From positions 1-64,000 of IMG/VR virus record IMGVR_UViG_3300034101_003180: a stretch of 64,000 bases of DNA, one strand, 5' to 3'. This document shows, in pieces, positions 28,738-48,739 of the stretch. The DNA comes from a virus. The translations under genes and the position numbers were made by a program. The notes under the pieces are model-generated. The model was not told where the DNA came from. It did not search any database and saw only the letters and a program-made list of their open reading frames with translations. Every line of letters begins with the position of its first letter. The stretch's first letter is position 1.

Positions 28738-28810
28738 TCCTCTGTAGCTCAGTAGGTAGAGCGGGAAGCTGTTAACTTCCATGTCACTGGTTCGATTCCA
28801 GTCGGAGGAG
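28738..28810 (+). tRNA. tRNA-Asn (GTT)
   Basis: A complete cloverleaf of 73 nt. The acceptor stem TCCTCTG pairs with CGGAGGA, the anticodon loop is CTGTTAA, the T-arm CTGGTTCGATTCCAG is regular, and the discriminator is G. No CCA is encoded. It starts 8 nt after the reductase stop and is followed by a strong terminator. Confidence 0.95.
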
Positions 28811-28821
28811 TTTAAAAAATA

Positions 28822-28848
28822 AAATTCTCCCCAAAAGGGAGAATTTTT
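28822..28848 (+). terminator. Rho-independent terminator after tRNA-Asn
   Basis: AAATTCTCCC (28822-28831) pairs with GGGAGAATTT (28837-28846) around a 5-nt loop and runs into T residues. It ends the replication/nrdJ/tRNA transcript just before a late box. Confidence 0.85.
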
Positions 28849-28850
28849 GT

Positions 28851-28858
28851 TATAAATA
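28851..28858 (+). promoter_or_regulatory. T4-like late promoter TATAAATA
   Basis: A perfect TATAAATA box directly after the terminator. No coding sequence begins within 100 nt downstream. Instead, the predicted start (about 28864) coincides with the first base of a strongly structured segment, so this promoter probably makes a small RNA, read through to the next gene or not. Confidence 0.7.
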
Positions 28859-28863
28859 ATTTT

Positions 28864-28947
28864 GCCGGGGGAGTTGTGGCTCGCGTTTTCTCTTAAGTGG
28901 TCGAAGCACGCTTGACAGAGAACCAAGAAACACTCCCCTGCGCGAGG
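28864..28947 (+). ncRNA. Candidate structured RNA with nested pseudoknot
   Basis: A non-coding segment between two late boxes. Stem A: 28866-28874 (CGGGGGAGT) with 28932-28940 (ACTCCCCTG), 9 bp including one G-U. Stem B: 28880-28885 (CTCGCG) with 28941-28946 (CGCGAG), 6 bp, crossing stem A and stacking directly on it. Inside, 28888-28893 (TTCTCT) pairs with 28917-28922 (AGAGAA), topped by 28895-28899 with 28909-28913. The three strong helices form an H-type pseudoknot with an inserted hairpin. No known RNA family was recognised. Function, and whether it is a separate RNA or a leader, are open. Confidence 0.55.
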
Positions 28948-28955
28948 TATAAATA
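28948..28955 (+). promoter_or_regulatory. T4-like late promoter TATAAATA
   Basis: A perfect box that abuts the last strand of the pseudoknot. It lies 3 nt before the ATG at 28959 and 12 nt before the ATG at 28968, favouring the second as the start of the RuvC-like gene. Confidence 0.7.
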
Positions 28956-28967
28956 TCTATGTTCTAT

Positions 28968-29519
28968 ATGCTCGTAGGTGTTGACTACTCAATAACTTGC
29001 CCGTGTTTATGTCTCTATGATGAGCGTAAAGAATTTAAATTTGAAAATTGTTCGTTCTATTATCTTACAACAGTTAAAAAATTTGCAGATAAAATTTTGC
29101 CAAATATTAATGGTGAAAGTTTCCAAGAGTATGTGATGGACGTGGATCGGTTTGATACGATATCTGACTGGTCAAGCAAGTTATGTATGGGTGCCTCAGA
29201 TGTAGCCGTAGAAGGCTATTCCTACGGTTCTAAAGGCCGTGTGTTTAATCTGGCCGAGAACATGGGGATCTTCAAGCATAAGCTCTATAAGGCCGGGATT
29301 CCCGTAACCGTCATAGAGCCGTCCAAAGCAAAGAAACTCGCCACAGGCAAAGGAAACGCTGATAAAGTGGCAATGTATAAAGCCTTCTCTGAGGAGACTG
29401 GAACAAATTTAGCGTTTACTTTTAATCAAAAAACTTTGTCAAATCCAATAACGGATATTGTAGACAGTTATTATATTCTCAAATCACTTCTTCAGTTAAA
29501 AACTGATCTTGCAAATTAA
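28968..29519 (+). CDS. RuvC/RNase H-fold nuclease (Holliday junction resolvase-like)
   Basis: A 183-residue protein. It opens with MLVGVDYSIT (first catalytic Asp), then VAVEGYSYGSKG (Glu), and near the end TDIVDSYYIL (C-terminal Asp pair), the order of acidic residues in RuvC-like resolvases. Cyanophages carry similar genes. It may cut branched DNA before packaging, overlapping the role of endonuclease VII (55915). An in-frame ATG at 28959 is only 3 nt from the TATAAATA box, so 28968 is preferred. Its 3' end overlaps the convergent gene by 41 bases. Confidence 0.8.
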   Translation: MLVGVDYSITCPCLCLYDERKEFKFENCSFYYLTTVKKFADKILPNINGESFQEYVMDVDRFDTISDWSSKLCMGASDVAVEGYSYGSKGRVFNLAENMGIFKHKLYKAGIPVTVIEPSKAKKLATGKGNADKVAMYKAFSEETGTNLAFTFNQKTLSNPITDIVDSYYILKSLLQLKTDLAN

Positions 29520-29780: not shown

Positions 29781-29788
29781 TATTTATC
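29781..29788 (-). promoter_or_regulatory. Late promoter GATAAATA (minus strand)
   Basis: The plus strand reads TATTTATC. The box ends 5 nt before the ATG at 29775, inside the end of the zinc-ribbon gene. The message would be nearly leaderless. Confidence 0.65.
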
Positions 29789-30087: not shown

Positions 30088-30576
30088 TTATTTCTTCCTA
30101 AAAGTAATTAGCATGTGATCAAACAAGAACCCATAGGATGGTTCCTTTGGTTTATTTTTAAGAGGCATTTTTGCTTCTTTGGGTGTCTTATTTCCTTTTG
30201 CAAGATTGCAATCTTTGCAAGAAGTTACCATATTGACCCAAGTAGATCCACCGCCTTTTGACTTGGGAACGATATGATCTACAGTTGCTGTTTTATCACA
30301 AAGATCTATTCCGCAGTATTGACATGTATAATTGTCTCTGCGGAATACATTTTTTCTATTTGGAACTACTCGTTTAAAAGGAAGTTTGACGTAGTATTTT
30401 AAAATTAATACCTTTGGAATTTTAACAATTTTAGAAACTGAAACAACTTCATAGTATTCGGGAGTTTGTTCGTCAACCCATACTTTATCTTTTGAAATAA
30501 GTTTAAATGCTTTTCCAACGGTAATAATATTAAGCGGTGTATTGTCTTGATTGAGCAAGAGGACCTGCTTAGTCAT
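30088..30576 (-). CDS. HNH endonuclease
   Basis: A 162-residue protein. The HNH core has CQYCG, ATVDHIVPKSKGGG and SCKDCNLAKGN, giving two zinc knuckles around the catalytic DH. The N-terminus VLLLNQDNTPLNIITVGKAFKLI is typical of a free-standing HNH family spread in phages and bacteria. The frame is open upstream to an ATG at 30618, but a CATAAATA late box (30587-30594) and AAAAGG site place the start at 30576. It may nick DNA in packaging or act as a homing-type enzyme. Which one is unclear. Confidence 0.85.
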   Translation of the reverse strand: MTKQVLLLNQDNTPLNIITVGKAFKLISKDKVWVDEQTPEYYEVVSVSKIVKIPKVLILKYYVKLPFKRVVPNRKNVFRRDNYTCQYCGIDLCDKTATVDHIVPKSKGGGSTWVNMVTSCKDCNLAKGNKTPKEAKMPLKNKPKEPSYGFLFDHMLITFRKK

Positions 30577-30586
30577 ACCTTTTAAG

Positions 30587-30606
30587 TATTTATGAAAATC
30601 TAAATA
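30587..30606. promoter_or_regulatory. Divergent pair of late promoters
   Basis: The minus strand has CATAAATA (plus TATTTATG, 30587-30594), 10 nt before the HNH start. The plus strand has TCTAAATA (30599-30606), 10 nt before the ATG at 30617. The two boxes are 4 bases apart and point away from each other. Confidence 0.6.
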
Positions 30607-30616
30607 TTTTAAAGCC

Positions 30617-30907
30617 ATGGATAATAAACAAGATAGACAATTTTATTGGGAAGTCAAGGATTTTATGCAAAAAAAGACAAATCCTGTAACACCAGCACCC
30701 AATAAACTACAAAATACAATTAAAGAAGTGACATCAAATATTCCATCAGTTTCAGCGCCAGTCAATGATATGGTAAATAGTTCCTCACAATTAAAAAATT
30801 CTGTAAATGAAACTATTCAAAAATATCAAAATAGTTTAAATAGACAAAAACCACAATCATTCAAAACAAGTGCAAACATAAATCTAAATCCTTTTAGAAT
30901 TAAATGA
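30617..30907 (+). CDS. Unidentified 96-residue protein
   Basis: A polar, Asn/Gln/Lys-rich and probably disordered protein (for example NKLQNTIKEVTSNIPSVSAP and QKYQNSLNRQKPQSFK). It has no membrane segment or motif. It is first in a plus-strand late unit and is followed one base later by the 620-residue gene. A virion or internal role is inferred from context only. Confidence 0.55.
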   Translation: MDNKQDRQFYWEVKDFMQKKTNPVTPAPNKLQNTIKEVTSNIPSVSAPVNDMVNSSSQLKNSVNETIQKYQNSLNRQKPQSFKTSANINLNPFRIK

Positions 30908-41623: not shown

Positions 41624-41660
41624 ACAATAACTCAGACTAAACAAATGTCAAGTATAAATA
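41624..41660. promoter_or_regulatory. Composite divergent early/late promoter
   Basis: Minus strand: TTGACA (41646-41651), 16-nt spacer, TATTGT (41624-41629), 6 nt to the ATG at 41617. Plus strand: TATAAATA (41653-41660), 5 nt to the ATG at 41666. The early -35 and the late box are one base apart, so they share polymerase footprint. Confidence 0.75.
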
Positions 41661-47359: not shown

Positions 47360-47968
47360 ATGTACGATATCAATATCCCACATTTTTATTGTTTGTTAAG
47401 AAAAGAGCATCTTTACCAAAACAAAGATCATTTCTTTGAATATGAAAAGGTCGCAGTCTTTGGGGCACAATCAAGTGCTGGAAAGGCTTTGTTGTTTACA
47501 GTAATGTTGGATAACGGAACAATAAGAAGTAGAGTTCCAATTCATATGTTATGCAGTAAAGAAGGCCCATCAGATCCATTAGATTACTTGCAACTTTGGG
47601 ATTGTTTTTCTGAAAATGTTACAGTCACAACTTATAGTTTTTTAAAGGGTGCCAGAGCAAAAGTTATATTTAAAGATAAAAGCCACTCTTGGGGAAATTA
47701 TAAAATGACATTTGATTGGTATGATAACCCATACAGCAACGAACCATCTCAATACAAATGTCTTCACATGATTGAACTGGATAATGGAAATTATGCTCTA
47801 CAACCAAACAATAGAATATTTTGGAAAGAAATGTCTTTCACAACCAAGCCATTTCCAGAAAAACCAGATTATAAAGTTGACACACAGGAGTATAGATGCG
47901 AGAATAAAAGCGATAGATGGATTATAAGTGATGATGATAATTATTATTATGATATAAATCCTACATAA
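47360..47968 (+). CDS. Unidentified protein starting 2 nt after tRNA-Tyr
   Basis: A 202-residue protein with mixed strands (MYDINIPHFYCLLRKEHLYQNKDHFFEYEKVAVFGAQSSAGKALLFTVMLDNG) and aromatic-rich loops (FDWYDNPYSNEPSQYK). The frame stays open into the tRNAs, but the ATG at 47360 is the first outside them. No ribosome site can exist in the 2-nt gap. Proteins of this look with an AVFGAQSSAGKALLF-like segment occur in marine myophages, function unknown. It lies between tRNAs and the tmRNA. Confidence 0.65.
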   Translation: MYDINIPHFYCLLRKEHLYQNKDHFFEYEKVAVFGAQSSAGKALLFTVMLDNGTIRSRVPIHMLCSKEGPSDPLDYLQLWDCFSENVTVTTYSFLKGARAKVIFKDKSHSWGNYKMTFDWYDNPYSNEPSQYKCLHMIELDNGNYALQPNNRIFWKEMSFTTKPFPEKPDYKVDTQEYRCENKSDRWIISDDDNYYYDINPT

Positions 47969-48172
47969 TCATGGTATTGTTGATATCGGATAGAAATGCA
48001 TATGACACGGGAGTTCGAATCTCCCCGGATCCACTTTACGGGTCCGACAGGCATCGATCAGTGCAGAGTATTGAAGAAGGAGATACCCGACACGGGTAAC
48101 AAGTGTCGTAAATAAACAGTTGCAAATATAAAAGCCGCACCAATGCGGATGGCTGCTTAAAGCAGTGGGGTT
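47969..48172 (+). ncRNA. ssrA: Circularly permuted (two-piece) tmRNA
   Basis: The acceptor piece comes first: T-arm GGGAG-TTCGAAT-CTCCC (48009-48025) and acceptor strand CGGATCC (48026-48032), discriminator A. A 6-nt spacer follows, then the 5' acceptor strand GGGTCCG (48040-48046), which pairs over 7 bp. GTGCA (48061-48065) can pair with TGCAT (47997-48001) as helix 2. Pseudoknot 1: ACCC/GGGT (48085/48094) with GACAC/GTGTC (48089/48103). The tag frame begins GCA at 48122 and reads ANIKAAPMRMAA, stop TAA at 48158 in a CTGCT-TAA-AGCAG hairpin. It would rescue stalled ribosomes and tag proteins. The 5' limit of the acceptor piece is approximate. Confidence 0.85.
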
Positions 48173-48173
48173 T

Positions 48174-48208
48174 CCCGGTTTTCCCGCGACTGAAAAACCG
48201 GGTTTTTT
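48174..48208 (+). terminator. Rho-independent terminator of the tmRNA
   Basis: CCCGGTTTT (48174-48182) pairs with AAAACCGGG (48194-48202), followed by six T. It ends the tRNA/tmRNA transcript 6 nt before a late box. Confidence 0.9.
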
Positions 48209-48213
48209 ATTGC

Positions 48214-48221
48214 CATAAATA
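48214..48221 (+). promoter_or_regulatory. Late promoter CATAAATA
   Basis: It lies 5 nt before the ATG at 48227, right after the tmRNA terminator. Confidence 0.72.
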
Positions 48222-48226
48222 TCTTC

Positions 48227-48739
48227 ATGCAGCACCCGAATGAGGGATTTATTAGAAATTTTTTAGGCACCGACAAAGCCTACAAAGAACAACTATTAGC
48301 TGAAGAGAAAAAGCGAAGAGTTAATGAGTATTTTGCTTGTAAGAAAAATAAGCAAAATATTCTTACAGAGCAAAGCAAAAATTCTATCAACAAAACTATT
48401 GAAAAAGTTTATTCAAATAGAAAATCAATTTCTTTGAATGAACAAAGAATAAATCCAAAGGAATGGAAGTTAATAAACACAGAATACGGTTTGTTTTATT
48501 ATAATGAAAAACAAGATCTATGGATGAATACTTTTGGTGTTATTAAAAAATCAATTACAGAATTTATTCAAGTAATAGATTACAATGTAATTGATACCGA
48601 TTCACCAAAAAGAAAAACACCAAATGCACCATCTAATTTCCAAGTTGAAATTTTAAATGAATTTGGTGATGTTAATTTAACTTGGAATGATAATTCTGAT
48701 AATGAAAGTGGATTTGCAATTTATATAACTCAACAATAA
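48227..48739 (+). CDS. Late protein with partial fibronectin III-like C-terminus
   Basis: A 170-residue protein. The N-terminus contains a helical peptide ending in LLAE (possible head-protease site), then a Lys/Asn/Gln-rich linker. KEWKLINTEYGLFYYNEKQDLWMN is a separate beta element. The C-terminus (APSNFQVEILNEFGDVNLTWNDNSDNESGFAIYI) is the first part of a fibronectin III domain and is cut short by the stop. A late promoter fixes the start. The next gene begins 3 nt later and also ends in an Fn3-like segment. Confidence 0.6.
   Translation: MQHPNEGFIRNFLGTDKAYKEQLLAEEKKRRVNEYFACKKNKQNILTEQSKNSINKTIEKVYSNRKSISLNEQRINPKEWKLINTEYGLFYYNEKQDLWMNTFGVIKKSITEFIQVIDYNVIDTDSPKRKTPNAPSNFQVEILNEFGDVNLTWNDNSDNESGFAIYITQQ

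Follow-up and report, generated by a model that had tools for sequence, protein, structure and literature searches.

The window analysed here, a stretch of 64,000 nucleotides, belongs to a 64,747-bp virus record in IMG/VR and carries genes for a DNA polymerase, a replicative helicase, a primase and a thymidylate synthase, together with T4-type late boxes. The locus under study runs from a class II-like ribonucleotide reductase gene through a tRNA-Asn, a terminator-like hairpin and a late box to a structured element, which is followed by a second late box and the gene for a RuvC-like resolvase:

28738-28810, + strand: tRNA-Asn (GUU), 5' of the element (Rfam and ARAGORN)
28824-28848, + strand: intrinsic-terminator-like hairpin and T run that closes the tRNA unit (read directly from the sequence)
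28851-28858, + strand: upstream T4-type late box TATAAATA (box scan), which precedes the hairpin in relatives too
28866-28940, + strand: conserved hairpin RNA (covariance model match of 84.4 bits; covariation)
28866-28876/28931-28940, + strand: stem P1 of the conserved hairpin, with U28875 bulged
28880-28885, + strand: 5' strand of a proposed crossing helix, CTCGCG, clade-specific at most
28881-28882/28927-28928, + strand: P1b of the conserved hairpin
28885-28891/28917-28923, + strand: P2 of the conserved hairpin
28892 and 28916, + strand: C.C mismatch of the conserved hairpin, between P2 and P3
28893-28898/28910-28915, + strand: P3 of the conserved hairpin
28901-28908, + strand: apical loop motif UCGAAGCA (family consensus UCGAAGYA), conserved across groups
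28941-28946, + strand: 3' strand of the proposed crossing helix, CGCGAG, clade-specific at most
28948-28955, + strand: downstream late box TATAAATA, which abuts the element and is conserved in relatives
28959-29519, + strand: RuvC-like Holliday junction resolvase ORF (phrog_159, E = 4.3e-27), starting at 28959 or, more likely, 28968

An HNH endonuclease ORF lies near ruvC (30088-30618, minus strand); it is a candidate homing endonuclease and could drive allele exchange at the locus. Elsewhere in the window, near a tRNA cluster, the phage encodes a permuted tmRNA (47943-48251; Rfam RF04321, 53.6 bits; ARAGORN tag ANIKAAPMRMAA). The RuvC-like protein matched 410 phage records by tblastn, and the same kind of test found no relatives of it in genome_contigs. 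A cellular origin was rejected; the sole match to the element pattern in genome_contigs (L449) stops short of the element itself. In Mosig and Cr30, close isolated relatives, the RuvC gene sits within an operon whose upstream genes overlap or lie close.

The core of the element is one long interrupted hairpin. Folding of the segment yields -40.9 kcal/mol (z = -4.5), and none of 200 shuffled sequences folded as well. The first-pass annotation had proposed a structured RNA between two late promoters, built from an outer stem, an inserted two-part hairpin and a crossing helix. A fold far beyond chance and covariation of the nested helices give strong support to such an RNA, and both the outer stem and the two-part hairpin were recovered. 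The late box TATAAATA is indeed present at 28851 and again at 28948, exactly where the element had been said to end. Absent from that account was the apical loop, which is the most conserved part of the element. No strictly conserved internal core is visible.

Relatives were gathered by a search with the resolvase protein, and many proved to have a homologous hairpin upstream; pattern scans raised the total, so that the element is present in more than 100 IMG/VR contigs. Apart from the protease and methyltransferase-adjacent groups, a loose GGAGTAG pattern yielded mainly chance matches. We sorted the relatives into the window type (group A), the L020 type (B), those beside a Dcm-like methyltransferase (C), those inside a protease ORF (D) and the L045/L054 type, with a more distant ruvC (E). 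The layout of late box, hairpin, late box and ruvC recurs in A, B, C and E, and the stems are wholly different between some groups. The loop motif is kept although the stem sequences are unrelated: UCGAAGYA shows little or no variation in groups A, B and D, with the close variants UUGAAGYA and CCGAAGUA in C and E. A different long stem lies about 110 nt 5' of ruvC in L058 and L069, with a side hairpin bearing the loop CGAAGC, and is possibly a remote version of the element.

Covariance analysis in relatives, which the first-pass annotation had suggested as a check, showed that the nested helices covary in groups A and B. In group B 98.3% of the cells of the nested structure are paired, and nine of its 28 pairs show changes in both partners; its covariation score is 0.324, whereas shuffled controls score 0.161 and slid controls no higher than 0.094. 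In group A 92.3% of cells are paired, 13 of the 27 pairs having changed on both sides, and no shuffle among 500 did as well. G.U cells are far more frequent than A.C cells (44:4 in B, 13:3 in C and 14:0 in D), a count that is somewhat biased because RNAalifold structures permit G.U; the A5 alignment, in which P1 is partly misaligned, gives 34:14. This excess argues that the mRNA strand is the one that folds, and sense folds beat antisense folds in three of four groups. These sequence patterns indicate that the segment is a real and strongly selected RNA structure.

The strand bias also bears on whether the interrupted palindrome might work as DNA, forming an extruded cruciform or single-strand hairpin that serves, for example, the neighbouring resolvase, packaging or recombination. 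Such a site would fit the adjoining Holliday junction resolvase gene, the single match per contig and the frequent exchange of alleles around the element. Against it stand the G.U excess on the mRNA strand, the better sense folds and a constraint that is one-stranded and falls on the loop, and we regard a DNA-level site as very improbable.

The crossing helix fared differently. Its two 6-nt strands, CTCGCG and CGCGAG, are complementary in the window as had been described, but the helix does not hold up as a conserved feature of the element and shows no compensatory change. It is perfect in the window and in L009 and contains a G.U wobble, through one C-to-U change, in L001 and L260, and it is intact or almost intact in the three closest relatives of the window; in L006 and L017 the register of a similar helix is shifted. 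Among 10 and 16 distinct relatives, 57% and 53% of its cells are paired, which does not exceed shuffled controls, with no double-sided change. It is absent from the A' subgroup, B, D and most of C. Covarying nested pairs (C-G to U-A) moreover compete for the strand at 28880-28885. By a simple energy estimate, the pseudoknot-compatible fold (-21.6 kcal/mol) plus the crossing duplex (-8.6 kcal/mol) is less stable than the nested minimum of -39.3 kcal/mol. A stacked H-type or HDV-like pseudoknot was rejected as the conserved core.

From the stacked pseudoknot the first-pass annotation had drawn the possibility of a ribozyme, a ligand-binding RNA or a nuclease-resistant 5' end. Six contiguous crossing pairs in the window clade, a C-to-U change that still pairs as G.U, and region-to-tail complementarity that exceeds most shuffles in the window, L001, L009, L006 and L017, the only members where it is strong, speak for this idea. 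With the helix not kept across groups, the estimate preferring the nested fold and no ribozyme or riboswitch match in Rfam, we consider a pseudoknot with ribozyme, riboswitch or nuclease-resistant function highly improbable. At most, the crossing helix belongs to some members of group A; the structure is a long interrupted hairpin, to which one clade may add a pseudoknot. The Rfam search likewise proposed at the outset found no family for the element: no match in Rfam 15 reached the gathering score, and at E values up to 10 there were only sub-threshold, chance-level matches, mostly outside the element or on the opposite strand. A limited literature search found no published description of it.

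The position of the hairpin is as telling as its fold. Its usual place is directly 5' of the RuvC-like resolvase gene, between two T4-type late boxes, with varied genes upstream. The gene on its 5' side may be a ribonucleotide reductase, a Dcm-like methyltransferase or one of several other ORFs, and ruvC remains downstream, either directly after the hairpin or separated from it by one or a few genes, such as, in some genomes, a protease gene, an LpxH-like phosphoesterase gene or another ORF. The covariance model R2 found one match in each of 11 of the 22 long records and none in the other 11, which include the record of the window, a divergent member of group A. A dispersed mobile repeat was rejected, there being at most one R2 match per contig. 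L442 (reverse strand, about 3656) and L446 have a second, partial copy before a different late gene, made of the late box, the 5' half, the loop and a new 3' half, with the intact copy before ruvC. The ruvC genes of L340 and L348 have no hairpin directly upstream, and the 94-kb contig of L340 has no R2 match; such loci imply that the hairpin is dispensable.

In L022, L025, L031 and others the locus takes another form. Immediately after the promoter-proximal TAAATATTTTTGCC comes the ATG of a gene for a lipoprotein that has a trypsin-like domain (phrog_9683 protease). The hairpin follows some 100 nt later, embedded in frame in this ORF and upstream of ruvC. A lipoprotein trypsin-like protease gene lies between a late promoter and ruvC in many related phages (L022, L025, L031, L334 and others). 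The distant L047-type proteases, likewise upstream of ruvC, are colinear in protein sequence and have no such hairpin. Among 13 representatives, synonymous codon differences amount to 5.4% in the P1 arms and loop, whereas the remainder of the ORF shows 41%, and none of 5,000 random codon sets and none of 185 windows was equally low. This low synonymous variation argues that the RNA is selected even as coding sequence. Coding and noncoding alleles are interleaved in the resolvase tree, whose labels are imperfect in that L334, L338, L347 and L353 are marked as having no element yet carry it. The RuvC proteins of L024 (hairpin only) and L027 (protease allele) are 98.9% identical. As judged from these comparisons, the architecture of the locus switches often and the hairpin is retained.

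The description of the box at 28851 as lacking a gene of its own needs qualifying: in close relatives the same promoter stands before the hairpin-containing protease gene, and in most others before the hairpin and ruvC. By T4 spacing, transcription from this box would be expected to start near G28864. The box at 28948 lies 3-12 nt from the candidate ruvC start codons, a leaderless layout. The window holds 13 TATAAATA late boxes against 4.7 expected, and 17 of its 73 TAAATA boxes are followed at a distance of 3-12 nt by the ATG of an ORF with 60 codons or more, compared with 4.2% for other permutations of the same letters; this suggests that leaderless late mRNAs are widespread in this phage. 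Genes so placed include those at 41653, 48214, 50052, 54172 and 58244 on the plus strand and at 29787 and 56675 on the minus strand.

The product of T4 gene 49 is a junction resolvase. The order of hairpin, late promoter and resolvase start at our locus resembles that of T4 gene 49 (PMC3014915), and the locus could be a device of the gene 49/e/soc type, in which longer, hairpin-bearing transcripts are poorly translated and resolvase is made only from a late transcript that starts inside or after the hairpin. Start sequestration of this kind was rejected, since the hairpin ends 18 nt before the ATG at 28959 and, in six sequences, the presence of the hairpin did not consistently reduce start-codon accessibility; a direct effect on initiation is not apparent. 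The complete hairpin also precedes the late box, and the other late promoter would itself make a hairpin-bearing RNA. We consider this reading improbable.

With confidence somewhat short of even, we propose instead that the element is a cis-acting, putative protein-binding hairpin that lies at, or close to, the 5' end of a late transcription unit to which the RuvC-like resolvase gene belongs. In this scenario the late promoter at 28851 would give a long RNA that begins with the hairpin, and the promoter at 28948 a nearly leaderless ruvC mRNA without it; the window ruvC, having its own promoter, may not need to rely on the upstream one. The long variable stem would display the conserved loop to a phage or host RNA-binding protein, whose binding, possibly nucleating on the AU-rich stretch after the hairpin, would tune how stable the long late message is or how well it is translated. 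The structure conserved on the mRNA strand, its loop motif, the ruvC linkage and the double late-box layout are observations, from which we infer transcription, a binding partner and a regulatory outcome.

Covariation, a loop retained over unrelated stems, the ruvC linkage, the single match per contig and the synonymous constraint in the protease ORF all support the cis role; the other ORFs that sometimes separate hairpin and ruvC, and the ruvC loci without a hairpin, count against it. Some of these observations would also suit a stand-alone sRNA of about 85 nt, transcribed from 28851, processed out and acting in trans, for example with its loop titrating a host protein, so that proximity to ruvC would be positional. 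The position of a late promoter just where P1 begins, the separate late box of the next gene, the single copy and the nucleotide-level retention even inside the protease ORF or ahead of other genes fit this. No terminator follows the element, however, and the fixed ruvC amid changing upstream genes would be left unexplained; we judge a trans sRNA possible but unlikely. We are similarly doubtful of a version in which a late phage RNA acting in trans through the UCGAAGYA loop is so important that the protease allele preserves it as a dual-function sequence in its reading frame. Because the upstream genes vary while ruvC stays, a cis role linked to ruvC is favoured over a trans role, a preference that does not settle the matter.

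Whichever role applies, the element represents a structured RNA family with good support, which Rfam 15 lacks and which occurs in abundant uncultivated phages. It is unusual in that a single RNA structure is maintained in two settings, a noncoding leader and the coding sequence of a protease. The conserved loop offers a direct handle for finding a binding partner, and the locus draws attention to the leaderless late-gene layout in these phages.

Rickettsia palindromic elements are hairpin-forming sequences found both between genes and in frame inside protein genes. Our element shares this dual placement; unlike them, it is not a dispersed repeat, with a single R2 match in each of the 11 records rather than several copies per genome, a partial second copy in one contig and a fixed ruvC linkage. 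T4 gene 49, e, soc and I-TevI have hairpins with internal late promoters (PMC3014915). Here too a hairpin and a late promoter stand immediately ahead of a late gene, the box at 28948 lying between hairpin and gene and being conserved in relatives. By contrast, the element locks neither start codon nor Shine-Dalgarno sequence, and the whole hairpin, with a late promoter of its own, is 5' of that late box. The T4 gene 32 leader contains a stacked pseudoknot in T2 and T4 (PMC3014915). Like it, the element is a predicted structured 5' leader followed by an AU-rich stretch; the differences are that its pseudoknot lacks conservation and that it precedes a resolvase gene. T4 more generally has loop-specific hairpin operators and leader structures, and in the gene 43 operator of T4 and RB69 a short loop on an mRNA hairpin is read by protein, the loop and hairpin top being conserved between the phages (PMC3014915). 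A conserved recognition loop on a variable stem, as in gp43- and gp32-type operators, is also what we find here, in the mRNA of a T4-type phage, although the stem is much longer and interrupted, the loop differs, there is no overlap with the start region and the gene is late rather than early. We favor a model in which the element resembles, in principle, the leader operators of T4 genes 43 and 32, with a putative binding partner and a predicted effect on the late message.
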